64,000 bases of DNA from Kutzneria sp. 744 (GTDB taxonomy: Bacteria > Actinomycetota > Actinomycetes > Mycobacteriales > Pseudonocardiaceae): the NCBI RefSeq assembly GCF_000568255.1, contig NZ_KK037166.1:4329016-4393015 (forward strand), given 5' to 3'. The notes under the pieces are model-generated. The model saw nothing but the letters and a program-made list of their open reading frames with translations. It searched no databases and was not told where the DNA came from. Each line of letters starts with the position of its first letter. Within the stretch, counting starts at the first letter, position 1. Made by a program: the position numbers and the translations under genes. Of the stretch, positions 34,787-58,450 are shown one piece after another.

Positions 34787-34804
34787 CATGTAGGTCAGAA
34801 CATG
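34787..34804. promoter_or_regulatory. Inverted repeat between glycosylase and WYL regulator
   Basis: CATGT and ACATG arms flank an 8-base spacer (CATGTAGGTCAGAACATG) in the 86-bp divergent gap. It is a short candidate operator for the WYL regulator; no other evidence supports it. Confidence 0.3.
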
Positions 34805-34831
34805 TCCCACATCGATGGCATATTTGTCGTC

Positions 34832-40758: not shown

Positions 40759-41364
40759 TCAGGTGTGGTAGACGTCGATGTGCCAGCGGCCGTCGGCCTG
40801 GTTCACCGTGCGGACATGCCATTCCACGGTGATCGGGATGCCGTTGATGATCACGTAGAAGTCGGCGGCCACGGTGACCTTCCCGGTGCCGTCGGCGGTG
40901 TGCGAGGACCAGTCCTTCAGGGCGTCGTAGGCGAATCCGCCGTAGTGGCAGGTTCCGCCGGTGGCCGACACGGCCGCGCCGTCGTACCTCAGTCCGAAGT
41001 CGACGGACGCGTGCCAGGCGTCGCAGCTGTAGGCGGAGCACAACTGCACGGTCCGGGCCGTCTTCGTCGAGGCGAAGGTGGCGATGTTGACGCAGTCGGT
41101 CTCCGGCACGCCTTCGGGGTACTTCTTGTGCAGGAAGGCGCATTCCGCGGTGGAGCCGGTGTAGCGGACGCTGATGGTCCCCTCGGCCGGCGCGTCGGCG
41201 TTGACGATGAGCTTGCCGGACAAGGCAGACGTGGCGCCGACGATGCTGTCGCCGACCGGGGCGGCCGGCGCCTTTCCGGTTCCGCCGAGGAATGCGGTGG
41301 ACACGCCGAGTGCGACGACCGCCGCGGCCACCGCCAGCATGCCGGCTCTGCGTACTCGGGACAC
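40759..41364 (-). CDS. Exported four-cysteine protein of unknown function in the PKS operon
   Basis: Secreted or membrane-tethered protein of 201 residues: an N-terminal signal or anchor (RRAGMLAVAAAVVALGVSTAF) and a mature domain with five Cys spread over about residues 75-140 (STAECAFLH, ETDCVNIA, LCSAYSCDAW, GTCHYGGFAYD), suggesting disulfides. No known domain recognised. It sits between the exporters and the TcmI-like cyclase gene and is presumably cotranscribed. It could bind the product outside the cell or assist export. Not a usual type II PKS component. Confidence 0.65.
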   Translation of the reverse strand: MSRVRRAGMLAVAAAVVALGVSTAFLGGTGKAPAAPVGDSIVGATSALSGKLIVNADAPAEGTISVRYTGSTAECAFLHKKYPEGVPETDCVNIATFASTKTARTVQLCSAYSCDAWHASVDFGLRYDGAAVSATGGTCHYGGFAYDALKDWSSHTADGTGKVTVAADFYVIINGIPITVEWHVRTVNQADGRWHIDVYHT

Positions 41365-41482: not shown

Positions 41483-41803
41483 TCACGCCGACCAGTGGTA
41501 GAACTGCTCGGCCATGGCGTCGCGCGGGGAACGCCAGGTCTGCGGGTCGTAGGGCTCGATGTGGTTGGCCAGCTTGTCGTTGACGTCGACGAAGAGCTCG
41601 TGCCCGCGCACGTCCTCGACCCGCTGCGGGCCCCGCTCGTCGGTCTCGAACAGGTGGAAGTACAGGCCCTGGTAGCGGAACAGCTGGCGGCGGGTGACGC
41701 CGACCAGCCCGGGCAGGGCGGTGCGGTCCGACTCGGTGAAGATGTCGGCGACCCGCCCGGCCGCGTCCGGCGTCATCCGGGCGACGATGAGCGTGGTGGT
41801 CAT
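41483..41803 (-). CDS. TcmI-family polyketide cyclase
   Basis: Small cyclase of 106 residues of the TcmI/WhiE-VII family (LIVARMTPDAAGRVADIFTE, ALPGLVGVTRRQLFRYQGLYFHLFE, then PQTWRSPRDAMAEQFYHW). It closes the last ring(s) of an aromatic polyketide in the cytosol. The family has a ferredoxin-like dimeric fold. Twelve bases separate it from the acyltransferase gene upstream. Its presence points to a tetracenomycin- or pentangular-type scaffold. Confidence 0.9.
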   Translation of the reverse strand: MTTTLIVARMTPDAAGRVADIFTESDRTALPGLVGVTRRQLFRYQGLYFHLFETDERGPQRVEDVRGHELFVDVNDKLANHIEPYDPQTWRSPRDAMAEQFYHWSA

Positions 41804-41815
41804 GACGGCCTCCGA

Positions 41816-43030
41816 TCAGGTGGGAATGAGCTTGGGGCGCTTGGGTTTCGCGACGGACCAGCGGGTGCGGATCGGGCGCTCGACGAAGGTGTAGAGCAGC
41901 CAGGCCAGGCCGAGGCTGACCAGCAGGTCGATGGCGATGATGCCGAAGGCGGCCGGGATGCTGAACAGCTGTCCGTTGCGCAGCAGGGTTCCGCCGCCGA
42001 ACACCACGATGCCGTGCACCAGGTAGAAGGAGTACGACATGTCCCCGAGCTTGGCCCATATCCTGCCGCGCAACAGGGAACGTCGGTTGTGCACGTCGGT
42101 GGCGGCGGCTGCGGTGACCAGCAGCGCGGCCGGCAGGATCTCCACGAAGGCCAGCTCGTAGGTGAACGGCAGCAGCAGGCCGACCGCGCCGGCCGCCAGG
42201 TAGATGGCGATGGCCGGCACCAGGCCGAGGTTGATCCAGCGGCCGGTCTTGATGATCCGGCACATGATCATGCCGAGCACGAAGTCCAGCATGCGGGTGG
42301 GCGGCGCGGTGTAGACCATCCAGAACTGGGTCATGCCGATGGGCGAGGAGAACGGGAACTGCGGCGTGTTCGGCACCAGGAAGTTGGAGATGGTGGAGAC
42401 CACGAACACCGTCGCCACGATGCCGCCGACCCACCACCACAGCCGGCTGGGCGCGATCTTGTTGACCCAGCGCAGGATGAACGGGAACAGCAGGTAGAAC
42501 GGGATCTCGCAGGCCAACGACCAGGTGGACCCGTTGAGGGCGGCCCACACCTCGTAGCGCGGGACCCAGGACTGCACCAGGAAGATGTTGGGCAGCACCT
42601 GCCACAGCGCCGCCCCCATGCCCAGCAGGCAGATCAGCATCGTGACCAGGTGACCCGGGTAGATGCGGACCAGCCGGCGGCGCAGGAAGCCGCCGTAGCT
42701 GTCGGTGGGCTTGGCCAGCCAGGTCAGCAGGAAACCGCTGAGCACGAAGAAGAACGAGACGCAGCCGAACGCCGCGACGCGGAACACGGCCTCGAAGGCG
42801 TCGCCGAAGGCGGTGTCCGCGAACGGGTTCACACCCGGCAGGGGCAGCAGGGAGTGGTCCATGAACACGGTCAGGGACGCGAACACCCGCAGGCCGGGCA
42901 GCGTCGCCAGCCGGAGCTTGGACGGTTTCGGTCGGTCGGCAGAAGTCGATGCCGAAGTCGACGCAGGGGTCGATGCGGAGGTCGACGTGGGGGGAGCCGA
43001 TCCGGTGGATGCGGGGATCGTTGAGGTCAT
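41816..43030 (-). CDS. Acyltransferase-3 (OafA/YrhL-like) membrane O-acyltransferase
   Basis: Integral membrane acyltransferase of 404 residues with about ten helices. Family features: LPGLRVFASLTVFMDHSLLP with the catalytic-region His early, FFFVLSGFLLTW, and RLVRIYPGHLV. Such enzymes move acyl groups from acyl-CoA to hydroxyls of sugars, lipids or natural products such as macrolides. Here it probably acylates the polyketide. An Ala/Ser/Thr-rich N-terminal tail of about 30 residues (repeated TSAS-type motifs) is low complexity. Confidence 0.85.
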   Translation of the reverse strand: MTSTIPASTGSAPPTSTSASTPASTSASTSADRPKPSKLRLATLPGLRVFASLTVFMDHSLLPLPGVNPFADTAFGDAFEAVFRVAAFGCVSFFFVLSGFLLTWLAKPTDSYGGFLRRRLVRIYPGHLVTMLICLLGMGAALWQVLPNIFLVQSWVPRYEVWAALNGSTWSLACEIPFYLLFPFILRWVNKIAPSRLWWWVGGIVATVFVVSTISNFLVPNTPQFPFSSPIGMTQFWMVYTAPPTRMLDFVLGMIMCRIIKTGRWINLGLVPAIAIYLAAGAVGLLLPFTYELAFVEILPAALLVTAAAATDVHNRRSLLRGRIWAKLGDMSYSFYLVHGIVVFGGGTLLRNGQLFSIPAAFGIIAIDLLVSLGLAWLLYTFVERPIRTRWSVAKPKRPKLIPT

Positions 43031-44907: not shown

Positions 44908-45654
44908 CTAGGAGCTGGCGGTGACGCCGCCGTCGACGTACAACACCTGTCCGGTGACGAAGCTGGCCTGCGGCGACGCGAAGAACGTCACGGCGGCGGC
45001 CACCTCCTCGGGGCGGGCGAAGCGGCAGGCCGGGATGCGGCGGATCATCATGGCGGTGAACTCGTTGTCCACGCCCGCGGTCAGCCCGGTCGGCACGAAC
45101 CCGGGCGCGACGGCGTTGACCGTCACCCCGTGCGCCGCCCACTCCGTGCTGAGTTGCTTGACCAACAGGTTCACGCCGGCCTTGGACGCGCCGTAGGCGG
45201 AGAACCCGCGCCGGCCGCCGTATTCGCCCCGGGTGGAGGACAGCAGCACGATCCGGCCCGGCCGGCCGGCGTCGACCATCTCCCGGCCGACCGCCTGGGC
45301 CAGCCAGAAGCTGCCGGACAGGTTGATGCCGATCACCCGGTCCCACTCCTGCGGCGAGACCTCCAGCGCCGGGCCGTGGGCGTCGATGGCGGCCAGGTTG
45401 ACCAGCACGTCGATGGCGCCGAGGTCCTCGGTCACATCCGCGACGAGCCGGTCCACGGTGACCTTGTCGGCCAGGTCCACCGTGTACGGGAAGGCCCGCA
45501 CTCCCTGTACACGCAGTTCCTTGCAGGCGATCTCGGCGCTGCTCAGCGTGCGGCCGGCGACCGCCACCGTGGCGCCCTCGGCCCCCAGCTGGTCGCAGAC
45601 CGCTCGGCCGATGCCGCCGTAACCCCCTACCACCAAGGCAATCCGGTCAGACAT
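44908..45654 (-). CDS. SDR-family ketoreductase/dehydrogenase (third SDR)
   Basis: Classical short-chain dehydrogenase of 248 residues: LVVGGYGGIGRAV (TGxxxGIG with V for T), NLAA in place of NNAG, the catalytic Ser in LLSSTRGEY and YGASK, and a C-terminal LYVDGGVTAS. The altered NLAA still allows folding. It overlaps the SchA/CurD-like gene by eight bases. Probably a tailoring reductase or dehydrogenase. Confidence 0.88.
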   Translation of the reverse strand: MSDRIALVVGGYGGIGRAVCDQLGAEGATVAVAGRTLSSAEIACKELRVQGVRAFPYTVDLADKVTVDRLVADVTEDLGAIDVLVNLAAIDAHGPALEVSPQEWDRVIGINLSGSFWLAQAVGREMVDAGRPGRIVLLSSTRGEYGGRRGFSAYGASKAGVNLLVKQLSTEWAAHGVTVNAVAPGFVPTGLTAGVDNEFTAMMIRRIPACRFARPEEVAAAVTFFASPQASFVTGQVLYVDGGVTASS

Positions 45655-46027
45655 CGGCCAGCTCCTCGTCGTGCCGGCGGCTGAGGATGCAGCGCATGCT
45701 GGCCGAGGCGAAGAAGGCGGCGGTCTTCTCCGGGGTGGACATGTCCCGCTCCTGCTCCAGGTACTGCTCCAGCGCCGTCTCCAGGTCGCGGACCTCCCGC
45801 TGCTGGCCCATGTGCTTGGCCACGTCGATGAAGTCGCCGTCGAACTCGATCACCCGCACGACGGTGTTCTGCCGCATGAACACCGAGGTTCTCTTGAGCA
45901 GACCGACAACTTCGCCGGCCGCGTTGCGCACGGTGTGGTCAGGCCGACCACTGCGCTCGAACAGCCGGATCACGTCGTCCTCGGTCCCCCGCCGGACGTT
46001 CCAGGTCAGCGCCCACTGCTGTGACAT
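45647..46027 (-). CDS. SchA/CurD-like domain protein (WhiE-I type)
   Basis: Protein of 126 residues of the SchA/CurD family (WALTWNVRRGTEDDVIRLF, RTSVFMRQNTVVRVIEFDGD). It is found in spore-pigment clusters (whiE, sch, cur), where it assists late steps; the exact reaction is not established. Its presence alongside a cupin and a TcmI-like cyclase gives this cluster a spore-pigment signature. Starts 111 bases after the methyltransferase stop; a small coupled frame fills the gap. Confidence 0.88.
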   Translation of the reverse strand: MSQQWALTWNVRRGTEDDVIRLFERSGRPDHTVRNAAGEVVGLLKRTSVFMRQNTVVRVIEFDGDFIDVAKHMGQQREVRDLETALEQYLEQERDMSTPEKTAAFFASASMRCILSRRHDEELADV

Positions 46028-46142
46028 CGTGGTACCCCTCGCTCTCGATTTCGTCGTTCCAGAAGTACGGGTCCGGCACGCCGAGCAGGGCCGCGCCGTA
46101 CCAGGCGAACCAGTCGAGGACCCGCGCGGCCGCCGGCGTCAT
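45939..46142 (-). CDS. Possible 67-residue coupled small protein
   Basis: ATG at 46142 overlaps the methyltransferase TGA as ATGA and opens a 67-residue frame whose first half (MTPAAARVLDWFAWYGAALL, then GVPDPYFWNDEIESEGYHD) fills the only sizeable gap in this stretch of the operon. The second half overlaps the SchA/CurD-like gene out of frame. It may be a real small protein, a C-terminal remnant of a lost gene, or a leader that carries ribosomes to the next start. No homologue recognised. Confidence 0.4.
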   Translation of the reverse strand: MTPAAARVLDWFAWYGAALLGVPDPYFWNDEIESEGYHDVTAVGADLERPAGDRGRRDPAVRAQWSA

Positions 46143-47206
46143 GCCGGGCGCCCCACCAGGATCGAGTTGGGCGGGTTGATCTCGACGATCTCGTCGAGCG
46201 CGAAACCGGCGCGGGCGAACAGGTCCCGCCACTCCGCCTCGGTGCGCTCGACGCCGCCGACGTTGACCATCATCTCCACGTCCATGAACTTGGCGAAGCC
46301 CCAGCCGTTGAGCGCCGGCACCACGGCCTCGATGACCAGCAGCCGCGCGTCCGGCCGGTCGCCGATGGCCCGGCGCACGCGGCCGAGGATGTCCGCGCAC
46401 TGGTCGTCGTTCCAGTCGTGCAGAACGCTCTTGAGGATGTACGTGTCGCCGCCGCCCGGCACGGTCTCGAAGAAGCTGCCCGCGGCCAGCTCGACGCGGT
46501 CGCCGAACTCGCCGGTCACCGCAACGTCCACAACGGACTGCTGGTCGAACAGGATGGCCGTGGTGTCCGGGTTGGCCCGCAGGATCTCCGAGACCAGGAA
46601 GCCCTGGCCGCCGCCGATGTCCACGACCTTGCCGGCGGTCGAGAAGTCGTAGCGGTCGGTGATGTCGCTGATCGAGTCGCCGGACAGGGCCAGCATCGCG
46701 CCGTCGAAGATCTGCTGGCTCTCCGGGTTCTTGGCCATGTAGGCGAACATGTCCGGCACGTCGTTGAGCTGGTTGAACACCGGGGCGCCGGTGCGCACGG
46801 TGTCCAGGATCCGGCCGTAGGGGCGCCAGGTGAAGTCCTCGCCGAAGAAGATCACGGCCTGGCGCAGGGAACCCGGCACGTCGGCCCGCAGGAACTCCGA
46901 CAGCGGCGTCTGACCGAAGCGGCCCTCGGTGTCCTCGGCGAACACGCCGACGCTGGCGATGGCCCGCAGGATCCGGTGCAGCGAACGGGCATGCGTGCCG
47001 GTGGCCTCGGCCAGCTCGGCCGGCGTGCGCGGGCCGTCGGCCAGCAGGTCGGCCACGCCGAGCTTGGCCGCGACGTACAGCGACTGCGAGACCCACTTGC
47101 TGGTGGCCATCAGCAGGATCTGCGCGGACTCCGGCAGGAGCGCGGTGTCCGGCGGGTCGGCGACGAGGCCCTCGTGCACAACCGGGGTCTCCTGAACCTG
47201 CGTCAT
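46139..47206 (-). CDS. SAM-dependent O-methyltransferase (DnrK/TcmN-type)
   Basis: Class I O-methyltransferase of 355 residues of the plant/actinomycete type: an N-terminal dimerisation winged helix (about 25-105: YVAAKLGVADLLADGPRTPAE) and a Rossmann domain with VVDIGGGQGF (SAM site) and KSVLHDWNDDQC, where the His is the usual base. It methylates a phenolic hydroxyl of the polyketide. It lies one base after the ABM gene; AAGGAG for its ATG is inside that gene's end. Confidence 0.92.
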   Translation of the reverse strand: MTQVQETPVVHEGLVADPPDTALLPESAQILLMATSKWVSQSLYVAAKLGVADLLADGPRTPAELAEATGTHARSLHRILRAIASVGVFAEDTEGRFGQTPLSEFLRADVPGSLRQAVIFFGEDFTWRPYGRILDTVRTGAPVFNQLNDVPDMFAYMAKNPESQQIFDGAMLALSGDSISDITDRYDFSTAGKVVDIGGGQGFLVSEILRANPDTTAILFDQQSVVDVAVTGEFGDRVELAAGSFFETVPGGGDTYILKSVLHDWNDDQCADILGRVRRAIGDRPDARLLVIEAVVPALNGWGFAKFMDVEMMVNVGGVERTEAEWRDLFARAGFALDEIVEINPPNSILVGRPA

Positions 47207-47207
47207 C

Positions 47208-47513
47208 TCAGATCTCCTTCAGCGAGTAGGCCACTTCGTGGATGTTGCGCTCGACCGCGCCGGCCCAGTACGGCCGCAGCGGGGTGGTGGTCTGCTTGTG
47301 GATCGGGGCGTCCTCCCAGGCCAGGAAGGCGGCCGTGTTCTCCCACTCGGACAGCAGGATGTAGCGGTCGTCGTCCGCGGTCGGCCGCAGCAGCTCGTCG
47401 CGGATGTGCCCGGGAGTGCCGGCGACCTTGGCGGTCACCTCGGCGTAGGCCGCCTCGAACTGCTCCTCGTCGCCCTGGCGAATGCGGGCGAGCACCATCA
47501 CTCGTGCGGTCAC
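47208..47513 (-). CDS. ABM-fold cofactor-free oxygenase
   Basis: Antibiotic-biosynthesis-monooxygenase domain protein of 101 residues (VMVLARIRQGDEEQFEAAYA, RYILLSEWENTAAFLAWED). Enzymes like ActVA-Orf6 and TcmH use O2 without cofactor to make quinones. GTG start overlaps the preceding ABM stop (GTGA). With its neighbour it may form a heteromeric oxygenase, as seen for paired ABM proteins in other aromatic clusters. Confidence 0.82.
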   Translation of the reverse strand: MTARVMVLARIRQGDEEQFEAAYAEVTAKVAGTPGHIRDELLRPTADDDRYILLSEWENTAAFLAWEDAPIHKQTTTPLRPYWAGAVERNIHEVAYSLKEI

Positions 47514-47809
47514 TGCTGTGCTCCGATCTCGGCTAGTTCCATCCGGGCGCTGCGCCGCAGTGCGGCCAGCGGGGCGGTGACGCGGTCCTGTTCCTCGCTG
47601 GTTTCGAAGCGGTGGAAGGACTCCCGGTCCGTCCAGTCGCTGGTGATGACGAACTCGGTGACGCCGTCGGCCAGGTCGCGGGCGGTGATGGCCTGCCCGA
47701 GGCAGCCCTCGACGGTGGCCGCGTAGTCGGCCGCCGGCCGGCACCGGGTGATGAACTCGTCGGCGTCGGTGGTGCCGACCTGCATGGTCAGGGTCATCCG
47801 GACGGCCAT
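47510..47809 (-). CDS. ABM-fold cofactor-free oxygenase (paired)
   Basis: Second ABM-domain protein of 99 residues (MTLTMQVGTTDADEFITRCR, VTEFVITSDWTDRESFHRFE). Coupled to the other ABM gene by GTGA and two bases after the SDR stop. The pair is more diverged than tandem duplicates would be, consistent with distinct subunits or substrates. Confidence 0.8.
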   Translation of the reverse strand: MAVRMTLTMQVGTTDADEFITRCRPAADYAATVEGCLGQAITARDLADGVTEFVITSDWTDRESFHRFETSEEQDRVTAPLAALRRSARMELAEIGAQQ

Positions 47810-47811
47810 GC

Positions 47812-48552
47812 TCAGATGCCTCCGTCCACATAGAGCAGTGCCCCGTTGACGAAGCCGGACAGGTCGCTGGCCAGGAACAGCACCGTGTCGGCGATGTCCT
47901 CGGGCTGGCCGAGCCGGCCCAGCGCGGCCAGGTTGGCGTAGCGGGTGCGCTGCTCGGGCGTGAGCCCGGCGACCTGGTCGGTCTGCACGATGCCCGGCGC
48001 CACGCTGTTGACCCGGATCCGGCGCGGGCCCAGCTCCTTGCACATGGACCGGGTCAGGCCGTGCACGCCGGCCTTGGCCGCGGTGTAGTGGGTCCGCTCG
48101 GGCATGCCGACCCAGGCCACCGCTGAGGTCACGTTGACGATGGACGCGTTGTCCCGCAGGCGGGGCAGCACCGAGCGGACGACGAGGAACATGCCGGTGA
48201 GGTTGGTGTCCACCACCCGGTGCCACTCGTCGAGCTCCATGCCCAGCAGCGAGGCGCTGCTGACGACGCCGGCGTTGTTCACCACGATGTCCAGCGCCCC
48301 GACGCGTTCCGCGAGCGCGGACACCTCGGACTCGTCGGACACGTCGGCGAACGCGACGGCGTGCTCGCTGGAGAGCGCCTTGAGGTCCTCGGCCAGCTGG
48401 TCGGCCGCCTCGCTGGGGCGACTGCCGACCGCGGTGACGGTGGCGCCGTGGCGGGCCAGCGTCAGCGCGGTGGCCCGTCCGATGCCGCGGGTGCCGCCGG
48501 TGACCAGCGCGGTCTTGCCGGTCAGATCGATTCCAGTCACGACATGTCTCAC
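47812..48552 (-). CDS. SDR-family ketoreductase (FabG-like), second SDR
   Basis: Short-chain reductase of about 246 residues: VTGGTRGIGRAT, DIVVNNAGVVSS, catalytic Ser in NVTSAVAW, Tyr/Lys in HYTAAKAGVHG and LYVDGGI at the end. The start may be GTG 48552, overlapping the upstream stop (GTGA), or GTG 48540, which begins nearer the conserved part. The nearby first SDR has a similar layout, so they are paralogues; one may reduce the nascent chain. Confidence 0.88.
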   Translation of the reverse strand: MRHVVTGIDLTGKTALVTGGTRGIGRATALTLARHGATVTAVGSRPSEAADQLAEDLKALSSEHAVAFADVSDESEVSALAERVGALDIVVNNAGVVSSASLLGMELDEWHRVVDTNLTGMFLVVRSVLPRLRDNASIVNVTSAVAWVGMPERTHYTAAKAGVHGLTRSMCKELGPRRIRVNSVAPGIVQTDQVAGLTPEQRTRYANLAALGRLGQPEDIADTVLFLASDLSGFVNGALLYVDGGI

Positions 48553-49274
48553 ATTCCGCCGTCGACCATCAGGGTCTGGCCGTTGACGTAGGAGGAACGG
48601 TGGTCGGCGAGGAAGGCCACGACCTCGGCCAGCTCGGGCGACTGCCCGATGCGGCCGAGCGCGCACTGCCCCTCGTAGCGGGCCTTCAGCTCGGGATTGA
48701 GGCCCACGGCCGACATCTCGGTCTCGATGATGCCGGGCGCGATGGCGTTGACCCGGATGTCGCGCCGGCCGACCTCGCGGCTGAGCGCCTTGGTGAAGCC
48801 GATCAGCGCCGCCTTGCTTGCGGCGTAATGGGTCTTGCCGGGCGCGCCGGTGATGCCCAGGCCGGAGGTGATCGTGACGATGCTGGCCCCCGGGCCCATC
48901 AGCGGCAGCACCGCCCGTGTCACCAGGTACGGCCCGGTGACGTTGGTGGCGAACAGGGAATCCCAGTGCACCCGCTCGAGATTCTCCAGCAGCGCGAACG
49001 TGGTCACGCCGGCGTTGTTGACCAGCACGTCGATGCCGCCGAACTCCTCGGCGCAGCGGGCGACCGCCGCGTGCACCTGCTGCTCGTCGGAGATGTCGCA
49101 CTGGAGCGCGATTCCCTTGGGGGACGCGGCCTCCAGCTCCTTGGCCAGCAGCTCCGCCGCCTCGCCCTCGGTGCGGTACAGGCCGCACACGCGAACGCCG
49201 TCGGCCAGCAGCCGCTGCACCACGGCCTTGCCGATGCCCCGGCTCGCGCCGGTGACCAGTGCCGTGCGAGTCAT
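48549..49274 (-). CDS. SDR-family ketoreductase (FabG-like), first SDR
   Basis: Short-chain reductase of 241 residues with all motifs intact: VTGASRGIGKAV, IDVLVNNAGVT, ITSGLGITG, HYAASKAAL and TLMVDGGM. It resembles the pair of FabG-like reductases found in type II PKS clusters. Its start and stop are both in 4-base overlaps with neighbours (ATGA, GTGA). Likely reduces a polyketide keto group. Confidence 0.9.
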   Translation of the reverse strand: MTRTALVTGASRGIGKAVVQRLLADGVRVCGLYRTEGEAAELLAKELEAASPKGIALQCDISDEQQVHAAVARCAEEFGGIDVLVNNAGVTTFALLENLERVHWDSLFATNVTGPYLVTRAVLPLMGPGASIVTITSGLGITGAPGKTHYAASKAALIGFTKALSREVGRRDIRVNAIAPGIIETEMSAVGLNPELKARYEGQCALGRIGQSPELAEVVAFLADHRSSYVNGQTLMVDGGM

Positions 49275-49747
49275 GCCGTCCTCCCGCTCGTGGTCAGTTC
49301 GTTGTCCCAGTCGGTCTCCTTGGACACGATCGGGATCAGCCGCCGACGGTCCAGCGACTCCTGCTCCTCCGGCTTGATCCAGTCGCCGAAGCCGCTGCCG
49401 GTCGGCGCGGTGCGCATGATGCGGATGAAGCCGCTGCGCACCCGGCCCGGCACGGTGCCCCACTTGACCAGGGCCAGGTGCTCCGGCGAACGGGCGAAGT
49501 CGTGCAACGCCTCGTAGCTCTCGAAGAACGCGATGGCCCCGGTGGTCAGCGGGAACTTGAACAGACCCTTGTGGAACACGAAGCCCGGGGTCCGCTTGAG
49601 GCGGCGCATCATCTTCCACACCAGCGGGCCGCCGGTCAGGAAACCCTTGAGCGTCAACCGGGTCTTGCTGATGAACAGCACCTGCGCCCGAGCCTCGTCC
49701 GGCATGAGCTCGAAGTCCTGGGTCAGGCTGACGGGAAGCCGGCTCAT
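49271..49747 (-). CDS. Monooxygenase-like protein (DUF4188/CrtA-like ABM fold)
   Basis: Protein of 158 residues with an ABM-like core: LFISKTRLTLKGFLTG, MMRRLKRTPGFVFHKG, AIAFFESYEALHDFARSPEH. The motif order suits DUF4188 or spheroidene-monooxygenase-like families, which share the ABM fold. Not a standard aromatic-PKS gene. Both ends overlap neighbours by ATGA, tying it to the glycosylase gene upstream and the SDR gene downstream. The oxygenase role is inferred. Confidence 0.6.
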   Translation of the reverse strand: MSRLPVSLTQDFELMPDEARAQVLFISKTRLTLKGFLTGGPLVWKMMRRLKRTPGFVFHKGLFKFPLTTGAIAFFESYEALHDFARSPEHLALVKWGTVPGRVRSGFIRIMRTAPTGSGFGDWIKPEEQESLDRRRLIPIVSKETDWDNELTTSGRTA

Positions 49748-50664
49748 GACAGCGCCTCGTCCTTCAGCGCACCCAGACCCGTGTGCAGGTAGTAGGCCCA
49801 GTAGCCCAGGTGCTTGCCGTAACGGTCGCGCAGCAGCTGGTTGTCGTAACCCTCGCCGTAGATCTTGGCGGTGGCCTCGGCGAAGTTGGGCATGTCCAGC
49901 GGCACGAAGTCCATCCGGCCCAGGCCGCGCAGCAGGATCGCGGCGGCGGAGAACTCGCCGACGCCCTTGATCCGCCGCAGCGCCTTGGTCGCCTCCTCGT
50001 ACGGGGCGGTGGCCAGGTAGTCCTCGCCGATGTCCAGCAGGCCGTGCACCAGCGAGGCCAGGTACTCCGCCTTGCGCCCGTTCTTGACGATGCCGACCCA
50101 GTCCGCGGCGCTCAGGTGCTGAAGATCGGCCAGCTCCGGAAAGGCCTGGTAGTCAAGGCCTTCGAAGCTGATCTTGCGGCCGAAGTTCTGGGTGATCCGC
50201 CGCTTCAGCGCCGTGGAGACGTTCTTGGGCGTGCGCTGCGAGAGTATCGCCCACACCCCGATCTCCGCCACCGTGAGGAAGCGAACCTGGTGCAGGCCCC
50301 AGAGATTGCGCACCAGCCGGGCGTAGTCCGGGTGATCCTGGAGGGCCAGCGCGTAGAACTCGGCCAGGTTGTCCGACAGGCTCAGGTAGCCGTCGATCTT
50401 GTGGCAGACGATTTCCCTGGTCTGCTCGGAGATCGGCTCGTCGGAGTGCAGCACGTAGTCCACGCCGCCCCGACGGGAGGCGACCTTGAACGCGATGGCC
50501 TGGCCGTCCACGGCGATCGCCTTGGTCAGGCTGTCCACGGTCATCACCTGGTCGCCACGGCAGGCGCCGAAGCCACGCAGGAAGCGGATGGACGTCCGCA
50601 GGTCGAACGGCTGGGCGGCGGGCAGCACGCCCACGACCCGGGTCTGCCCCAGAACCGCGGTCAC
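49744..50664 (-). CDS. AlkA-like DNA glycosylase (HhH-GPD) inside the PKS operon
   Basis: DNA glycosylase of 306 residues, closely related to the copy at 33804. N-terminal AlkA-like part (about 15-115: FDLRTSIRFLRGFGACRGDQ), active helix GVWAILSQRTPKNVSTALKR (about 137-155), hairpin RIKGVGEFSAAAILLRG (231-247) and the catalytic Asp at about 257 in FVPLDMP. The predicted job is excision of damaged bases. GTG and ATG 4-base overlaps on both sides lock it into the biosynthetic operon, which points to self-resistance against a DNA-reactive product. All catalytic features are present. Confidence 0.88.
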   Translation of the reverse strand: MTAVLGQTRVVGVLPAAQPFDLRTSIRFLRGFGACRGDQVMTVDSLTKAIAVDGQAIAFKVASRRGGVDYVLHSDEPISEQTREIVCHKIDGYLSLSDNLAEFYALALQDHPDYARLVRNLWGLHQVRFLTVAEIGVWAILSQRTPKNVSTALKRRITQNFGRKISFEGLDYQAFPELADLQHLSAADWVGIVKNGRKAEYLASLVHGLLDIGEDYLATAPYEEATKALRRIKGVGEFSAAAILLRGLGRMDFVPLDMPNFAEATAKIYGEGYDNQLLRDRYGKHLGYWAYYLHTGLGALKDEALS

Positions 50665-51620
50665 GACACGACCTCCTTGACGGCAAGGGAATCCAGGGCC
50701 GCGCGGATGCCCGGCAGGGCGTCGTCGGACCGGATCACGGTGAGCACGCACAGATACGGATCGGCGACGATGGTCAGCAGCGACTTGTCCCGCGTGCCGA
50801 ACCCGTAGGCGGCGCCGAGGATTCCCTGCCAGTCCAGGGCGAGCCCGATGGCCTCGTCCTCGCCGGTCGCCACCAGCCCGGCCTCGACGCGCAGCCGCGT
50901 CGCCCGCTCGACCTGCTTGGCCCGGCCGCCGGCGATGTCGCGCTCGGCGACCTTGCGCAGGCTGCGCGGCACGCCTTGCAGGTGCGCCACCTGGATGATG
51001 GGCACCTCCGCCGTGGCCGGGTCGGTGCGCAGCGCGTCCACCAGGTCGTGGCCGGCCTTCTGGGTGATCCGGTTGCCCAGCACGACCACCAGCGGCCGTC
51101 CGGCCTTTGTGGACAGATCGACCTCGGTGTCGCCGACGCCCGGCAGCACGTAGCCACGCAGGCTCTTGGCCGCCGCCGCGCCCTCCACGGTGTTCTTGAT
51201 CAGTTCCAGCTGGATCGCGCTGTTGCTGTTGATCCGGTCGCGCATGCCGGCGTCGTCCACCGGGGCGCCGGGCTTCATCTGGAAGTCCTGCACCCAGCGC
51301 ATCACCGTGCCGCCGTCGGCCGCAGGCTCGTAGGTCCAGCGGATGTTCATGTACTCGAAGGGACCCGTCTCGACGCGGCGGGCCACGACCGTGCGGGCCG
51401 CGCGGTCCAGCTCGCGCTCGGACACCCAGCTCCACACCCGGCCCTGCTCGTCGGGGTGCATGGTGAGCCGGAACTTGACGTAGTCGGCCTTCTGCTCGAT
51501 CACCTCGGCCTCGGCGTACTCGCTGAACAGCCGTGGCCAGCCGGGGACGTCGTTGGTGATGTCCCAGACCAGATCGAACGGGGCGTTGAGGTGCACGGAG
51601 TTCTCGGTACGGGCAGCCAT
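50661..51620 (-). CDS. Polyketide aromatase/cyclase fused to a thioredoxin-like domain
   Basis: Protein of 319 residues in two halves. Residues 1-155 form a SRPBCC aromatase/cyclase of the TcmN/WhiE-VI single-domain type (VHLNAPFDLVWDITNDVPGW, YMNIRWTYEPAADGG, MRWVQDFQMK), which folds and aromatises the first rings. Residues 158-319 match, across their whole length, the stand-alone protein of the next gene (GRPLVVVLGNRITQKAGHDL, VPIIQVAHLQGVP, LALDWQG). That half resembles a thioredoxin/peroxiredoxin fold but has no CxxC pair, so a redox role is unlikely. The fusion is unusual. Confidence 0.8.
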   Translation of the reverse strand: MAARTENSVHLNAPFDLVWDITNDVPGWPRLFSEYAEAEVIEQKADYVKFRLTMHPDEQGRVWSWVSERELDRAARTVVARRVETGPFEYMNIRWTYEPAADGGTVMRWVQDFQMKPGAPVDDAGMRDRINSNSAIQLELIKNTVEGAAAAKSLRGYVLPGVGDTEVDLSTKAGRPLVVVLGNRITQKAGHDLVDALRTDPATAEVPIIQVAHLQGVPRSLRKVAERDIAGGRAKQVERATRLRVEAGLVATGEDEAIGLALDWQGILGAAYGFGTRDKSLLTIVADPYLCVLTVIRSDDALPGIRAALDSLAVKEVVS

Positions 51621-51623
51621 CTC

Positions 51624-52136
51624 CTACACGGTCCCTTCGACGGAAGTGGTGGCCAGCGCGGCCCTGACGGCCGCGAACGCGCCGGGTTCGGTGACCCGGG
51701 CCAGCTGCCGCTGCTCGTGGTCGAGCACCAGCACCACCGGCGTGCGGTCGGCGGCGCTGAAGCCGAAGCCGCCGGTGACCTCGCCGGTCCAGTCCAGCGC
51801 GATGTTCAGCAGCGTCGACTCGTCCACGGCCGGCGCGCCCAGCGCGGCCCGGCGGGCGGCCAGGTCGGACAGCTGCGCGCGGTAGCCGGCGGTGATGTGC
51901 CGGGTGGCCATGGCCTGCAACGGCTTGGGCACGTCGCGCAGGCAGGCCACCTGCACGACGGGCACCGACATGGTCTGCGGGTGCGACCGCAGCGACTCGA
52001 TGATCTCGTGGCCGGTCTTCTGGGTGTGCCTGTTGCCCAGCACCACGACCAGCGGGGCCCCGCGGTGGGCGTCGAAGTCCACCGCGGTCCCGTTGACGCC
52101 GGGAATGACGTGGCCGGCCAGGGGGTTCGCGCTCAC
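51624..52136 (-). CDS. Stand-alone thioredoxin-like domain protein, paralogue of the ARO/CYC fusion domain
   Basis: Protein of 170 residues, homologous throughout to residues 158-319 of the aromatase/cyclase fusion next to it (APLVVVLGNRHTQKTGHEI, VPVVQVACLRDVP, IALDWTG). It has one Cys and no CxxC, so it is not a classical thioredoxin. It lies between the ACP and the aromatase, one base after the ACP stop, with a GTG start. It may pair with the fused copy, perhaps as a heterodimer or scaffold. Function unknown. Confidence 0.6.
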   Translation of the reverse strand: MSANPLAGHVIPGVNGTAVDFDAHRGAPLVVVLGNRHTQKTGHEIIESLRSHPQTMSVPVVQVACLRDVPKPLQAMATRHITAGYRAQLSDLAARRAALGAPAVDESTLLNIALDWTGEVTGGFGFSAADRTPVVLVLDHEQRQLARVTEPGAFAAVRAALATTSVEGTV

Positions 52137-52137
52137 G

Positions 52138-52422
52138 TCAGCTGTCCACTCGCAGCACGGTGGTCAGGAAGTGCAGCGTGGCCGTGGGCGTCTTGAGCTC
52201 CTCGGCGTCGGCGTCGGTGATGGTGACGCCGAAGCGGTTGCCCAGCGCGACCATCAGGTCCAGGTGCCCGAGCGAGTCCAGCTCCCACTTGTCGTACAGC
52301 GCGTCCAGGTTCTCGTTGAGCTCGCGGGCGGTGGTGGGGAAGCCGCCCTGCGTCATCAGCTCGGCCAGCGTGGCGACCAGCTGCTCGGTGCTCAGACCCG
52401 ACTTGCTCGGCGCGATGGTCAT
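52138..52422 (-). CDS. Acyl carrier protein of the type II PKS
   Basis: ACP of 94 residues with the phosphopantetheine Ser at position 50 in WELDSLGHLDLM, followed by the helix-2 pattern. It carries the growing polyketide chain. The DSLGHLDLM motif and the longer N-terminus are normal for aromatic PKS ACPs. ATG at 52422 lies 17 bases after the CLF stop. No phosphopantetheinyl transferase is present in the window; a host enzyme must serve. Confidence 0.93.
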   Translation of the reverse strand: MTIAPSKSGLSTEQLVATLAELMTQGGFPTTARELNENLDALYDKWELDSLGHLDLMVALGNRFGVTITDADAEELKTPTATLHFLTTVLRVDS

Positions 52423-52439: not shown

Positions 52440-53678
52440 CTACGGGGTTTTCTCGGCCTTGCGCAGCACCACCGCGGCGTTGAAGCCGCCGTAGCCCCTG
52501 GCCAGCACCAGGACGTGCCGCAGGTCGGCGGTGCGCAGCTCGTGGACCAGGTCCAGGTCCACCGCCCACGGCGCCTTCTCGATCACCGGCGACGGCGGCA
52601 GCTCGCCGTGGAACAACGCCAGCGCGGCGGTGGCCACGTCCAGCGCCGCCGAGCCGGCGTACATGCGGCCGACCAGCGTCTTGGGCAGGCACACCGGCAC
52701 CGGCCGCGCGCCGAAAACCGTGCGCAGGGCGGCGATCTCGGCCTGGTCCAGGTCCGGAGTGGCGGCGCCGTCGGCGAAAACGGCGTCCACGTCCTGCGGC
52801 TGCACGCCGGCGTCGTCCAGCGCCAGCCGCGCCGCCCTCGCCAGGCCGACGCCGCTGGCCCGCTCGGTCGTGTGCCGCCCGTCGTGCGTGGCCGCATAGC
52901 CGGCGACCTCCGCGTAGATCCGTTCCGCGCCACGGTCTTCCGCGCGGGACTGCTCCTCGACGAGCAACATCGCGCCGCCCTCGCCGACCACGTGTCCGGC
53001 CGCCGTCGTGGAGAACGGCAGGTATGCGGCCATCGGGTCGTCGATCAGCGACAGGCGTCCGCCGCGCAGCTGGCAGGCCAGGGCGTACGGGCTGATCGGC
53101 GCCTCGGTCGCGCCGGTGACGACGGCCTTGGCCTCGCCCCGCCGCAACACCCGCCGGCTCAGGCCGATGGCGTCGAGGCCGCCGGCCGACTCGGTGGCCA
53201 ACACGCCGCACGGCCCCTTGGCGCCGTGCTTGATCGCCACCTGGCCGGTCGTCGCCGCGTAGAACCAGGCGATGGACTGGTAGGCGCCGACCGCGTGCGG
53301 GCCGTCGGTCCACAGCTTGTGGATCTCGCGTTGGCCGAACTCGTTGCCGCCGGAGCTGCTGGCCGTGATCACGGCCGTGTCGTATGGGTTCTCCCCCGGC
53401 GACTGGTGTCCGGAGTCCTCCAGCGCCTGCCCGGCCGCGACCAGACCGAGCTGGGTCCAGCGGTCGGTCTGGGCGGCGATCCGGGGCAGCACGTGCTCGG
53501 CGATGTCGATGTCGTGCACCTCGCCGCCGACCCGGCACGGGTAGTCGGTCAGGTCGAACCGGCTGATCCAGCCCAGCCCCGACACGCCCTTGCGCACGGC
53601 GTCCCAGTACGTGGCCGTGGTGGCGCCGATCGGGGTGACCGCGCCGATGCCGGAGATCACCATCTTCAGTGCGGTCAT
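52440..53678 (-). CDS. Chain-length factor (KS-beta)
   Basis: Ketosynthase-like subunit of 412 residues that pairs with KS-alpha and sets chain length. It has the KS fold ([38 protein letters not shown]) but lacks the active Cys: the segment [10 protein letters not shown] has Ser164 where KS-alpha has Cys170 and where most CLFs have Gln. The catalytic histidines are also absent, as expected. Start overlaps the KS-alpha stop by ATGA, the usual coupling for a 1:1 complex. Confidence 0.95.
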
Positions 53679-54943
53679 CGGTCCACCAGCTCCCTGCTCA
53701 TCACCAGCGCGGACTGGAAGCCGCCGAAGCCGCTGCCCACCGTGAGCACGTGCTCCAGCCGCGCCGGGCGGGCCTGCAGCGGCACGTAGTCCAGGTCGCA
53801 CAAGGGATCCGGCTCGTGCAGGTTGGCCGTCGGCGGCACCGCGTCGTTGGCGAAGGCCAGCACGCAGGCCGCCGTCTCGATGGAGCCGATGGCCCCGAGC
53901 GAGTGGCCGACCATGGACTTGATGGAGCTGACCGGGGTCCGGTACGCGGACTCGCCGAGGCTGCGCTTGAACGCCGCCGTCTCGTGCCGGTCGTTCTGCT
54001 TGGTGCCGGAGCCGTGCGCGTTGATGTAGCCGATGTCCTCGGCGTTGAGCCGGGCCTGGCGCATCGCGCGGTCGATCGCCTCGGACATCTCGATGCCCTC
54101 GGCGGTCAGCCCGGTCATGTGGTGCGCGTTGCCGGTGCTGGCGAAACCCGTTATCTCGCAGTAGATGTGCGCCCCGCGGCGGCGGGCCGACTCGTACTCC
54201 TCCAGCACGAGCGTGGCCGCGCCCTCGCCGAGCACGAAGCCGTCCCGGCGTCGGTCGAACGGCCGCGACGCGGTGGCCGGCTCGGCGTTGTTGGGTGAGG
54301 TCGCCTTGATGGCGTCGAAGCAGGCCACCGAGATCGGCGAGATCGGCGACTCGGCCGCGCCGGCGATCATCACATCGGCGGCGCCGTCGGCGATCAGCGC
54401 CGCGGCGTGGCCGAGGGCGTCCAGGCCCGACGTGCAGCCGGTGGACACCACGGCGGCCGGGCCGCCCGCGCCGAACGAGGCCGCGATCTCGGCGGCCAGG
54501 CTGCTCGGGACCAGCGCGTCGTACATGAACGGGTGCAGGAAGCGCAGGTCGGCCGACCACTGCGTGGCGTTGTCGGAGGCCGGCAGGTACTCGTCCTCCA
54601 GGAGAACGGTGCCGCCGACGGCGGTGCCCATGGACGTGCCGACCCGGTCGAGGTCGATGGCGTCCCAGTCCAGTCCGCAGTTCTCCACCGCCTCGCGGGC
54701 GGCGACCAGCGCGTACTGCACGTACAGGTCCATCCGCCGCAGCTCGCGGGCGGTCAGGCCCATCTGGAGCGGGTCGAAGTCGCACTCGGCGGCGATCTGC
54801 GAGCGGAAGGTGGACGCCTCGAAGCGGGTGATGCGCCGGGTGGCGGTGCGGCCGTCGACCAGCAGCGACCAGAATTCCTTGGCGCCGATGCCACCGGGCG
54901 CGACGACGCCAACGCCCGTGACGGCGACCCGTCTGCCGGTCAT
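53675..54943 (-). CDS. Ketosynthase alpha of the type II PKS
   Basis: Condensing enzyme of 422 residues. Cys170 in [11 protein letters not shown], His310 in [11 protein letters not shown] and His347 in [10 protein letters not shown] form the complete triad. [17 protein letters not shown] is the standard start. It catalyses malonyl condensations with the CLF and ACP. ATGA overlaps couple it to both the cupin and the CLF genes. The sequence reads closest to spore-pigment/pentangular-type KS proteins on inspection, but only a tree can decide. Confidence 0.96.
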
Positions 54944-55377
54944 GACTGCCCCGCGTTCGGGACCACGGCGTTCGGAACCACGGGGCCGTGCTCCTCCAGG
55001 TCAACGTGGCCCAGCTCCGGCCGCGGCGCCAGCGGGCCGAGGTGGAAAACGAGGAACGCCTCCTCGTCGCCGGTGTTCACCAGCCGGTGCGGGGTGTGCA
55101 GCGGCACCAGCAGGCCCTGCCCGGCGGTCAGCTCCACCGACTCGTCGCCGAGGTCGGCCCGCAGCCGGCCCCGGACCAGGAACACGAATTCCTCCGAATA
55201 CGGGTGCTTGTGGGAGGCGATGTAGTCGCCGGGCGCGACGGTCGCCACCCCCATGAACCCCGACGTCGAGCCGACGGTGCGAGGCGACAAAAGCGTGCGG
55301 ATCTCGCCGCCTCGCCGCGTGTCGGCGGGGACGTCGAGCATGGAAATCGGCTTGAGACCCGATGCGAGCACGAGCAT
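54940..55377 (-). CDS. Cupin-fold polyketide cyclase/monooxygenase (WhiE-II/RemF-like)
   Basis: Cupin protein of up to 145 residues: [20 protein letters not shown], then the metal-binding cupin motif [16 protein letters not shown] and [17 protein letters not shown]. Such proteins aid ring closure in spore-pigment and pentangular pathways. It is the first gene of the operon. The start is unclear: AGGGAG lies directly before ATG 55377 but six bases before an in-frame GTG at 55371; a later ATG at 55341 starts the conserved part. Confidence 0.85.
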
Positions 55378-55720: not shown

Positions 55721-56635
55721 GTGTTCGTTGACCTGACCGCCCCCAGCCGGCTCCGGCTGCCGCTCACGCCCATGGCCCGCACGTTCCGGGACTGCCTGTT
55801 GGAGGCCCGGCCCGTCGTGCAGTTCGTCTTTTTTGTTCGACTGCTGGCCGGCGCGGCGCTGGCGACGCCGTGGCTGCACGGCGTCCGACCGGAAACGCTG
55901 CTGCTCGGGGCGCTGTCGTGGGGCTGCGCCGTGATGTACGTGTATTTGTTCAACGGCGCCTCGGACATCGTCGAGGACCGGGCCTCGCACAAGGACCGTC
56001 CGATCGCCCGCGGCGAGCTGTCCCGGGTCACGGCGCTGAGATGGTGCCAAGGGTTCGCCATCGCCGCGATCGTGACCGGTGTGCTCATCGGACCGCTGTT
56101 CGCGCTGCTAGTGCTGGCCATGCTGGCCCTCGGGCACGCCTACTCCGCCCCCGGCATCGCACTCAAGCGGCACTGCCTGGGGGCGGCGATCGTCGCGGCG
56201 CTGGGCGGGGCGCTCACGTTCCTGGCCGGCCACCTGCTCGGCGGCGGCGGTCTCGCCAGCCCCGACCTGCTGCTTCTCGCCGCCGCGATGTCGGCGTGGA
56301 TGGGCGGCGTCGGCTCCGTGGCCAAGGACTTCTCCGACACCGAGGGCGACGCGGCGGCCGGACGGCGGACGCTGGTGCTGGTGTGCGGCGAGCGGATCGC
56401 CCGCATTGTCGTGGCCGGATGCGCACTCTCCGTGTCTACATCGTTTACCGCCGCAGCGTGGCTGTGGATCCCCACACTGCGTTTCCCGGCCCTGGTAATG
56501 CTGGTCGGTTCCCTTTGTGTCGCCTTCCTCGCACTGAAGGGTCGCCAAGGGATGCAAGGGTCCAACGCGCGTCACCCGTATCGGGCATTCATGGTCACGC
56601 AATACGCCGCGACTCTGTCCGTTATGTCGGTCTAG
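55721..56635 (+). CDS. UbiA-family membrane prenyltransferase
   Basis: Integral membrane prenyltransferase of 304 residues with about nine helices. The first Asp-rich motif is NGASDIVEDRASHKDRP (NxxxDxxxD) and the second is DFSDTEGDAAAGRRT, both needed to bind the prenyl diphosphate and magnesium. UbiA enzymes attach isoprenoids to aromatic rings. Located at the other side of the divergent PKS promoter and before the two-component system, it is probably part of the cluster; a GTG start follows GAGGAG. Membrane prenyltransferases are rare with type II PKS genes. Confidence 0.85.
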   Translation: MFVDLTAPSRLRLPLTPMARTFRDCLLEARPVVQFVFFVRLLAGAALATPWLHGVRPETLLLGALSWGCAVMYVYLFNGASDIVEDRASHKDRPIARGELSRVTALRWCQGFAIAAIVTGVLIGPLFALLVLAMLALGHAYSAPGIALKRHCLGAAIVAALGGALTFLAGHLLGGGGLASPDLLLLAAAMSAWMGGVGSVAKDFSDTEGDAAAGRRTLVLVCGERIARIVVAGCALSVSTSFTAAAWLWIPTLRFPALVMLVGSLCVAFLALKGRQGMQGSNARHPYRAFMVTQYAATLSVMSV

Positions 56636-56766: not shown

Positions 56767-57828
56767 GTGGAAACGTCGTCGGCCAGCGAGGTGGCGGACA
56801 TTCTCGACCGAGAGTGCGATGCCGTCATTGTTCGTTACGAAGCTGAACTAAGCATCATGGGAAGCCGCCTCCTGCAGGACCCGAGAACCCAGGAGGAATG
56901 CTTCCGGCAGGCCCGGGGGATCATTTCCGACATCGCACGGTCGCTGCGCGGGGAGCCGGCGCTCGGGCTGGGCCTGTCCAAGGACATCGGCGTTTCGCGG
57001 GCGTCCAACAACATCCATCCCAGCGAGTCGCTGCGCGCCGCGATGGCCTTGTTCGAGGCCATCACCACCACCGTGGCCGACATCGTCGAATCGCCGCGCG
57101 ACGTGCTGGCCCTGGCCCTGGCCACCAACAAGCTGGTCTCCCAACGCATTCGGATGGCCTCCAGCTCGTACATGGGCTTTCTGCTGGAGAGCATCGAGCA
57201 GACGCACCTGCGGGAACGCAAGCGGATCAGCCGCGAGGTGCACGACCGCATCGGCGGCAATGTGGCGGCGGCGCACCGGCAGATCGAACTGGCCACGGCG
57301 CTGCGGCCGACCCAGCCGGACCGGGCCGACGAGTGGACCAGCGGCGCCGAGCTGACCTTGCGGCACACCCTGGGCGACGTCCGCCGTCTGGTGTCGGACC
57401 TGCGCACCTGGGAGCCCGAGGGCGGGTTGGAGAGCTCGCTGCGCAGCTATCTGGACAGCGCGAAGCCGGCCGGCATGGAGTACGCGCTGCGGGTGAACGG
57501 GGACGAGTTCAACCTGTCCTCGGAGATCAGGGGCGAGGCGTTCCTGATCATCCGGGAGGCCGGCCGCAACGCGGTGCGGCACTCGAAGGCCGGCAAGCTG
57601 CTGATCCAGGTCAACATCACGCCCAACGAGCTGTACGCGTTCATCGAGGACGACGGCGTCGGCGTCGACATGGCGTGCAAGCAGGGCATGCGCAACGCCG
57701 GCCTGTGCTCGATGCGGGAGCGGGCCGCACTGCTGGAAGGGGAGATCGTCATCACGAGCCAGCTGGGGCGGGGCACCCGGGTCGAGTTGCTCATCCCGCT
57801 CAGACATGCGGCGGACGGCGATGCCTGA
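56767..57828 (+). CDS. NarL-family sensor histidine kinase
   Basis: Histidine kinase of 353 residues without clear membrane helices, so cytoplasmic. An N-terminal all-helical domain (about 1-135, RsbRD-like in style) precedes the HisKA_3 phosphoacceptor (RKRISREVHDRIGGNVAAAH, His at about 154) and an ATPase domain (IREAGRNAVRHSKA, EDDGVGVD, RGTRVELLIP). The GTG at 56767 follows GGGGAG by six bases; an upstream GTG (56749) is less likely. It overlaps the response-regulator gene by eight bases. Confidence 0.88.
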   Translation: METSSASEVADILDRECDAVIVRYEAELSIMGSRLLQDPRTQEECFRQARGIISDIARSLRGEPALGLGLSKDIGVSRASNNIHPSESLRAAMALFEAITTTVADIVESPRDVLALALATNKLVSQRIRMASSSYMGFLLESIEQTHLRERKRISREVHDRIGGNVAAAHRQIELATALRPTQPDRADEWTSGAELTLRHTLGDVRRLVSDLRTWEPEGGLESSLRSYLDSAKPAGMEYALRVNGDEFNLSSEIRGEAFLIIREAGRNAVRHSKAGKLLIQVNITPNELYAFIEDDGVGVDMACKQGMRNAGLCSMRERAALLEGEIVITSQLGRGTRVELLIPLRHAADGDA

Positions 57829-58450
57829 GGCGCCGACCAGGGTCGTGCTCGTCGACGACCACGCGCTGTTTCGCGACGGTGTGAAGCAGATCCTCCAGTT
57901 CGAGGAGGATTTCCGCATCGTCGGCGAGGCGGCCGACGGCGCCGCCGGCGTCGAGGTCGTGCAGCAGACGCGGCCCGATGTCGTGCTGCTGGACGTCGAG
58001 ATGCCCGGCGCCCACGTGACCGAGACGGCGGCCCGGATCCGCCAGGTCAGCCCGGAAACGAAGATCATCATCCTCAGCATGCACGACGAGCCGGCCCTGG
58101 TGAACCGCCTCGTCGGCCTCGGCGTCTGCGGCTACCTGCTCAAGAGCGTGACCCGGCTGGAGCTGCTCTCCGCCGTGCGCAGCGCCGCCCGCCACCCCGA
58201 CCAGGTGATCCTGTCGGTGTCCCGGGAGTCCTTGATGAGCAAGGACAATCCCGTGCCCGACACGCTGTCCACCCGGGAGCGCGAGGTGATGGAGCTGACC
58301 GCCAAGGCCATGAGCAACTCCCAGATCGCGGCCCGTCTCAACATCTCCGAGGCCACCGTCAAACGCCACCTGTACAACGTCTTCGGCAAGCTCGGGGCGG
58401 TCTCCCGCATCGACGCCGTGAACAAGTACTACAACCGTCAGCCCGGCTGA
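57821..58450 (+). CDS. NarL/LuxR-type response regulator
   Basis: Response regulator of 209 residues: receiver (about 7-120) with VVLVDDHALFRDG, phospho-Asp in VVLLDVEMPG and the Lys in GYLLKSVT, and a LuxR-type HTH (about 145-205: LSTREREVMELTAKAMSNSQIAA, ISEATVKRHLYNVF). Partner of the kinase just upstream. It probably controls the PKS operon and the SARP gene; palindromes at 55466 and 55556 are candidate sites. The ATG at 57821 starts the conserved part. Confidence 0.92.
   Translation: MPEAPTRVVLVDDHALFRDGVKQILQFEEDFRIVGEAADGAAGVEVVQQTRPDVVLLDVEMPGAHVTETAARIRQVSPETKIIILSMHDEPALVNRLVGLGVCGYLLKSVTRLELLSAVRSAARHPDQVILSVSRESLMSKDNPVPDTLSTREREVMELTAKAMSNSQIAARLNISEATVKRHLYNVFGKLGAVSRIDAVNKYYNRQPG

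Follow-up and report, generated by a model that had tools for sequence, protein, structure and literature searches.

In a 64,000-nt stretch of the Kutzneria sp. 744 genome (contig NZ_KK037166.1, positions 4,329,016-4,393,015 of the forward strand; hereafter the window, to which coordinates below are relative), a gene for a predicted DNA glycosylase of the HhH-GPD type, termed GLY1, lies within a type II polyketide synthase (PKS) operon, and a paralog, GLY2, lies at the opposite edge of the same gene cluster. With a probability of about 0.6, the two proteins protect the producer by excising DNA bases modified by the predicted product of the cluster. The arrangement itself is real and conserved. 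Repair-based self-resistance had been proposed in an earlier sequence-only reading of this DNA, which missed GLY2; the proposal is retained here as the best explanation, strengthened by GLY2, by its regulatory neighbour and by the conserved arrangement, and weakened in what it claimed for the active site. The central features are as follows.

49744..50664, minus strand: GLY1, HhH-GPD glycosylase-like protein of 306 amino acids (aa), in the PKS operon
33804..34745, minus strand: GLY2, 313 aa, a 78% identical paralog of GLY1 at the outer end of the conserved block
34802..35815, plus strand: WYL-domain transcription regulator with a helix-turn-helix (HTH), divergent from GLY2
34788..34812, no strand: dyad of imperfect symmetry, with 10-base arms and a 5-base spacer, lying between the GLY2 and WYL genes

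GLY1 starts with a GTG codon, 7 bases ahead of which stands AGGAGG (50672-50677). The start shares GTGA with the aromatase/cyclase gene (50661..51620) and the stop shares ATGA with the af470-like gene (49271..49747), which confirms the earlier description of GLY1 as joined by 4-base overlaps to an aromatase/cyclase and an oxygenase-like gene. Because these overlaps are present and both are kept in Kutzneria buriramensis, GLY1 appears to be translationally coupled to its operon neighbours. It is cluster-encoded in the sense of lying inside a biosynthetic operon and being conserved there, with the overlaps found in two species. Of the 30 tested window genes, 27 have a K. buriramensis counterpart (77-96% identical), in a block running from GLY2 to a response regulator gene. 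Outside the block, the rhodanese, MDMPI and SARP genes have no counterpart in the K. buriramensis stretches, which reach ~1.2 kb past the response regulator. The SARP matches in five Kutzneria genomes are paralogs (34-53% identical; 49% for the best in K. buriramensis among the matches listed), and the rhodanese gene has no match in five Kutzneria genomes, K. buriramensis included, in a search run without a positive control. The ratios of nonsynonymous to synonymous substitution rates (dN/dS) between the window and K. buriramensis are 0.20 for GLY1 and 0.19 for GLY2, with a range of 0.13-0.50 for 12 other genes of the block; both glycosylase genes are under purifying selection.

A high-confidence AlphaFold model predicts the HhH-GPD superfamily fold for GLY1, in its full AlkA/OGG1-type form. 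The best matches by predicted fold and by sequence are AlkA of Escherichia coli and of Archaeoglobus fulgidus, at 17-22% identity to AlkA in structural alignment; the structural Z-score against OGG1 is 23.6, lower than for AlkA. The Pfam scan finds no family for GLY1 at 0.01, with the PF00730 cut-off not reached, and no HTH_42 (AlkZ) or AlkD match. GLY2 scores 14.2 bits against PF00730, below the cut-off of 26.2, and a relative (P0068) passes with 33.8 bits. In NCBIfam, GLY1 scores 27 bits against AlkA (PRK10308, cut-off 229) and 42.8 bits against OGG1 (TIGR00588, cut-off 397.85), which is still its best match there. GLY1 misses both cut-offs and falls between the AlkA and OGG families, and ‘AlkA-like’, the name given to it by the sequence-only reading, is a loose label.

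The residue D257 of GLY1 is the canonical catalytic Asp after the hairpin, and GLY2 has the same residue. AlkA likewise has Asp at the catalytic position, and differs in that GLY1 is cluster-borne and belongs to a family in which this position is variable. The catalytic Asp of OGG1 also aligns with D257, whereas the lyase lysine of OGG1 is absent from GLY1, in which Phe238 occupies the aligned position. A protein search with GLY1 returned 186 relatives, of which the best 120 were aligned with GLY1 and GLY2 to give 122 distinct rows (P0001 is left out as a repeat of GLY1). Among the 36 rows at least 60% identical to GLY1, position 257 is E in 21, D in 12, and K, G and S in one each; position 252 carries an acidic residue (D or E) in 114 of all 122.

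The own genome holds two members of the family at E<=1, GLY1 and GLY2. GLY2 is transcribed divergently from the WYL gene across the dyad, which is a probable operator; the site is conserved in six genomes, with the WYL gene adjoining the GLY2-type gene in five of them, and in genome G102 its two 11-base arms are perfectly inverted around a 5-base spacer. The mechanical start of the WYL gene at 34802 overlaps the dyad; translation probably begins at the ATG at 34832, which most relatives retain. The WYL regulators PafBC and DriD are activated by single-stranded DNA (PMC11804915, PMC12340889). The window regulator resembles them in having a WYL domain with HTH, and differs in that its gene is divergent from a single glycosylase gene. 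We infer that the WYL protein may sense damage or bind the dyad, GLY2 probably being the damage-responsive copy and GLY1 the pathway-coupled one.

The possibility that GLY2 and the PKS operon share an operator was considered and rejected. With up to 3 mismatches, the window contains 8 dyad hits where 4.63 are expected, 15 of 100 shuffles reach 8 hits, and the sole exact match is the GLY2-WYL site. The dyad pattern was drawn from GLY2 loci and the scan covered eight genomes, six of which contain GLY2, and all six show an exact dyad at the GLY2 locus. Four further exact dyads lie away from GLY2 loci, in G163, G221 (K. buriramensis), G222 and G224, and none elsewhere in the own genome, where one mismatch gives ~20 sites against 13 for the reversed control. 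On these counts, control of GLY1 by the WYL regulator is not supported.

In the proposed mechanism, the product of the type II PKS cluster would react with DNA bases, and GLY1 and GLY2 would flip out and excise the modified bases. Excision is predicted to be single-function, of the Asp type without a lyase lysine, and would be followed by ordinary repair of the apurinic/apyrimidinic site. Translational coupling would have GLY1 made alongside the biosynthetic enzymes, so that protection would begin with production, and GLY2 would add a further layer of protection, turned on and off by the WYL protein encoded next to it.

The glycosylases described for cluster self-resistance are AlkD-like (YtkR2, C10R5) or AlkZ-like (AlkZ, TxnU2/4, LldU1/5, HedH4) in the accessible text of the reports, which agrees with the sequence-only reading (PMC8934636, PMC9040887, PMC8626424). 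TxnU2/TxnU4 and LldU1/LldU5, from the trioxacarcin and LL-D49194 clusters, are glycosylase pairs, each in one aromatic polyketide cluster, as GLY1 and GLY2 are, and confer self-resistance through base excision; multiple glycosylase copies are termed unique to txn and lld (PMC8934636). They differ in belonging to the HTH_42/AlkZ family, in being non-base-flipping and in having demonstrated activity, where that of GLY1 and GLY2 is predicted (PMC8934636). YtkR2 and C10R5 (yatakemycin, CC-1065) are likewise cluster-encoded and serve self-resistance, but are AlkD-related and non-base-flipping, and the accessible text mentions no second copy or WYL gene (PMC8626424). ORF11 of coelulatin, annotated as a 3-methyladenine glycosylase, also sits beside a type II PKS cluster, at its border where GLY1 is mid-operon (PMC9714029). 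A search of the open-licence literature turned up no HhH-GPD/AlkA enzyme described as serving self-resistance in a biosynthetic cluster, which is not proof of absence.

A family tree contains several rows with long branches, and its GLY1/GLY2 part alone is used. GLY1 of the window, of K. buriramensis and of two Amycolatopsis strains forms one clade (100/98), sister to GLY2 and the stand-alone genes (99/94), with a joint node at 100/99. The probable origin of GLY1 is the duplication of a stand-alone gene resembling GLY2, with recruitment into the operon. Its place in this operon is directly seen for two members of the clade, those of the window and K. buriramensis. For Amycolatopsis H20-H5 and NPDC059027, linkage of GLY1, GLY2 and the fused aromatase is suggested because all three are on equally long contigs (178459 and 69663, respectively). 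At nine distant loci (32-42% identity, 16 kb each), no WYL, ketosynthase (KS), chain length factor (CLF) or aromatase match is found.

The backbone of the cluster is far more widespread, with a CLF match at E<=1e-80 in 184 of the 390 Pseudonocardiaceae genomes. The best is that of K. buriramensis (95%), and none other exceeds 56% among the matches listed. Ten other CLF loci (50-56% identical, 20 kb each; nine from other genomes and one a second K. buriramensis locus) contain aromatase in 7, cupin in 6, TcmI-type cyclase in 6, ABM in 9 and short-chain dehydrogenase/reductase (SDR) in 10, and none has a glycosylase match at 1e-8. Because these backbone-sharing loci have none, the glycosylase tracks this product line. 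Comparison of the ten loci matched no named product.

Several observations weigh against the excision of product-modified bases by GLY1 and GLY2, and some of them lend themselves to other explanations. Among the 86 distant rows, position 257 is D or E in only 28 and neither in 58; T, S, G, W and N are common, and some of these cells adjoin gaps. The four GLY1 orthologs have D, D, K and E, the Lys belonging to Amycolatopsis H20-H5, whose GLY2 keeps Asp. Many distant HhH-GPD relatives thus have neither Asp nor Glu at the position of the canonical catalytic residue yet retain fold residues such as Q143, G236, Y288 and W289. The earlier claim that all active-site features are intact is accurate for GLY1 and GLY2 of the window and breaks down for the family. 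This pattern would suit GLY1 as a DNA-binding pseudo-glycosylase that binds, shields or flags adducts for GLY2 or another enzyme to cut, an unlikely role given the Asp in both window proteins and D or E in 33 of the 36 close relatives. Drift at position 257 is also compatible with activity, since the motifs of the trioxacarcin glycosylases drift as well, with HPhiQ beside QPhiQ (PMC8934636). The same drift, and the location of GLY1 between an aromatase and an oxygenase-like gene, could point to a biosynthetic or carrier protein working on the polyketide rather than on DNA; the full AlkA fold predicted at high confidence, and the second copy kept outside the operon next to a WYL regulator, make this very improbable. 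A different difficulty is that AlkA flips bases and the known bulky-adduct self-resistance glycosylases do not, the AlkD-like and AlkZ-like families being distinguished from base flippers, AlkA among them (PMC8934636).

The other points against excision of product-modified bases concern distribution. GLY2-type genes occur without this PKS in four genomes (G222, G223, which is K. kofuensis, G163 and G102), whose 20-kb stretches show only GLY2 and WYL from the cluster, and G102 keeps the dyad yet shows no WYL gene within 20 kb. The family therefore has a further role. GLY2-WYL stands by itself in further genomes of Kutzneria and Amycolatopsis, and the genes may be a general repair module, responsive to damage, that became trapped in the cluster, with GLY1 as a duplicate co-expressed with the PKS and not product-directed. 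The coelulatin case fits such a module, in that the glycosylase gene at the border of that cluster could be deleted with no change in production and is dispensable for it (PMC9714029). Against it stand the mid-operon position of GLY1, with overlaps kept across species, and the rarity of the pair: a family member is found at E<=1e-40 in 15 of 390 Pseudonocardiaceae genomes, 6 of which have one at least 65% identical, and at E<=1e-50 in 1 of 394 genomes sampled across the class, namely the one that contains the window. A repair module of this kind is accordingly given a small chance. The sequence-only reading would have been undermined by homologous clusters that regularly lack the gene; four strains carry GLY1 (two seen directly, two by equally long contigs), and Amycolatopsis NPDC021455 is a possible counterexample, having the fused aromatase (contig of 73751) and no listed glycosylase on an equally long contig. 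A search with the af470-like protein found 4 proteins, none from Amycolatopsis, and so leaves this strain undecided. One of these proteins (P0244) and a glycosylase relative (P0025) are on equally long contigs of 2426 bases. Since P0025 does not belong to the GLY1/GLY2 clade, the operon-type association may predate the GLY1/GLY2 split, and the origin of GLY1 by duplication may be an oversimplification.

Should GLY1 and GLY2 excise product-modified bases as proposed, the HhH-GPD pair would add a third family to cluster self-resistance, for which a base-flipping fold would also have been recruited, and the aromatic polyketide would be marked as a probable DNA-modifying agent. GLY1, or GLY2 with the WYL gene, beside biosynthetic genes would then be a search handle for similar compounds. 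The complete form of this idea, a duplicated HhH-GPD enzyme with one PKS-locked and one WYL-induced copy directed against a genotoxic pentangular-type polyketide that fits an AlkA-like pocket, is put forward tentatively and at less than even odds.

The other genes of the cluster are listed below.

35920..36912, plus strand: LuxR-type regulator, weak GerE match
37134..38606, minus strand: major facilitator superfamily (MFS) transporter
38613..40745, minus strand: MMPL transporter
40759..41364, minus strand: protein without a Pfam family, conserved as part of the block (K. buriramensis counterpart at 86%)
41483..41803, minus strand: polyketide cyclase, PF04673, TcmI type
41816..43030, minus strand: acyltransferase, PF01757
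43059..44804, minus strand: amidohydrolase, PF04909, start not fixed
44908..45654, minus strand: SDR reductase
45647..46027, minus strand: SchA/CurD-domain protein
46139..47206, minus strand: O-methyltransferase
47208..47809, minus strand: two small ABM-like oxygenase genes, labelled by eye
47812..48540, minus strand: SDR reductase, FabG-like
48549..49274, minus strand: SDR reductase
49271..49747, minus strand: af470-like monooxygenase, weak match
50661..51620, minus strand: TcmN-type aromatase/cyclase carrying a fused second domain
51624..52136, minus strand: 170-aa protein without a Pfam family, which recurs at 38% identity as the C-terminal half of the aromatase fusion
52138..52422, minus strand: acyl carrier protein (ACP)
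52440..53678, minus strand: CLF (KS-beta)
53675..54943, minus strand: KS-alpha
54940..55377, minus strand: cupin, first gene of the operon
55721..56635, plus strand: UbiA-type prenyltransferase
57806..58450, plus strand: response regulator, distal limit of the block shared with K. buriramensis

The cupin, KS, CLF, ACP, TcmN/WhiE-type aromatase and SchA/CurD genes resemble whiE-type spore-pigment clusters, and the gene set shared with the ten CLF loci is pentangular-polyphenol-like. A secreted product seems likelier than a spore pigment because the block also encodes transporters of the MMPL and MFS types and more than one regulator. The gene set contains nothing that proves an electrophile. 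The loosest genes of the block are those for the amidohydrolase (43059-44804, dN/dS 0.50) and the acyltransferase (41816-43030, 0.34). Full-length matches to the aromatase fusion, among those listed, come only from relatives of the cluster and one metagenome fragment. Structure prediction for the 170-aa protein has a pLDDT of 45 and is unusable.

Further glycosylase genes were noted in passing. A strong AlkZ-like gene (PF06224, E 4.7e-73; G000:C1:4326337-4327269) precedes the first base of the window by ~1.7 kb and is ~36 kb away from GLY2, beyond the conserved block, and the AlkZ-like matches of the own genome all sit away from GLY1. The stand-alone WYL-GLY2 pair of G163 (L022 853-10912) borders another biosynthetic-looking gene set, with ACP, KAS III-like, ATP-grasp, pyridoxal phosphate (PLP) decarboxylase, acyl-CoA dehydrogenase and ornithine cyclodeaminase-like genes. 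A distant glycosylase relative (31%), annotated as a hypothetical protein, is carried by a Staphylococcus haemolyticus plasmid (NZ_CP120084.1, 11968-12828).
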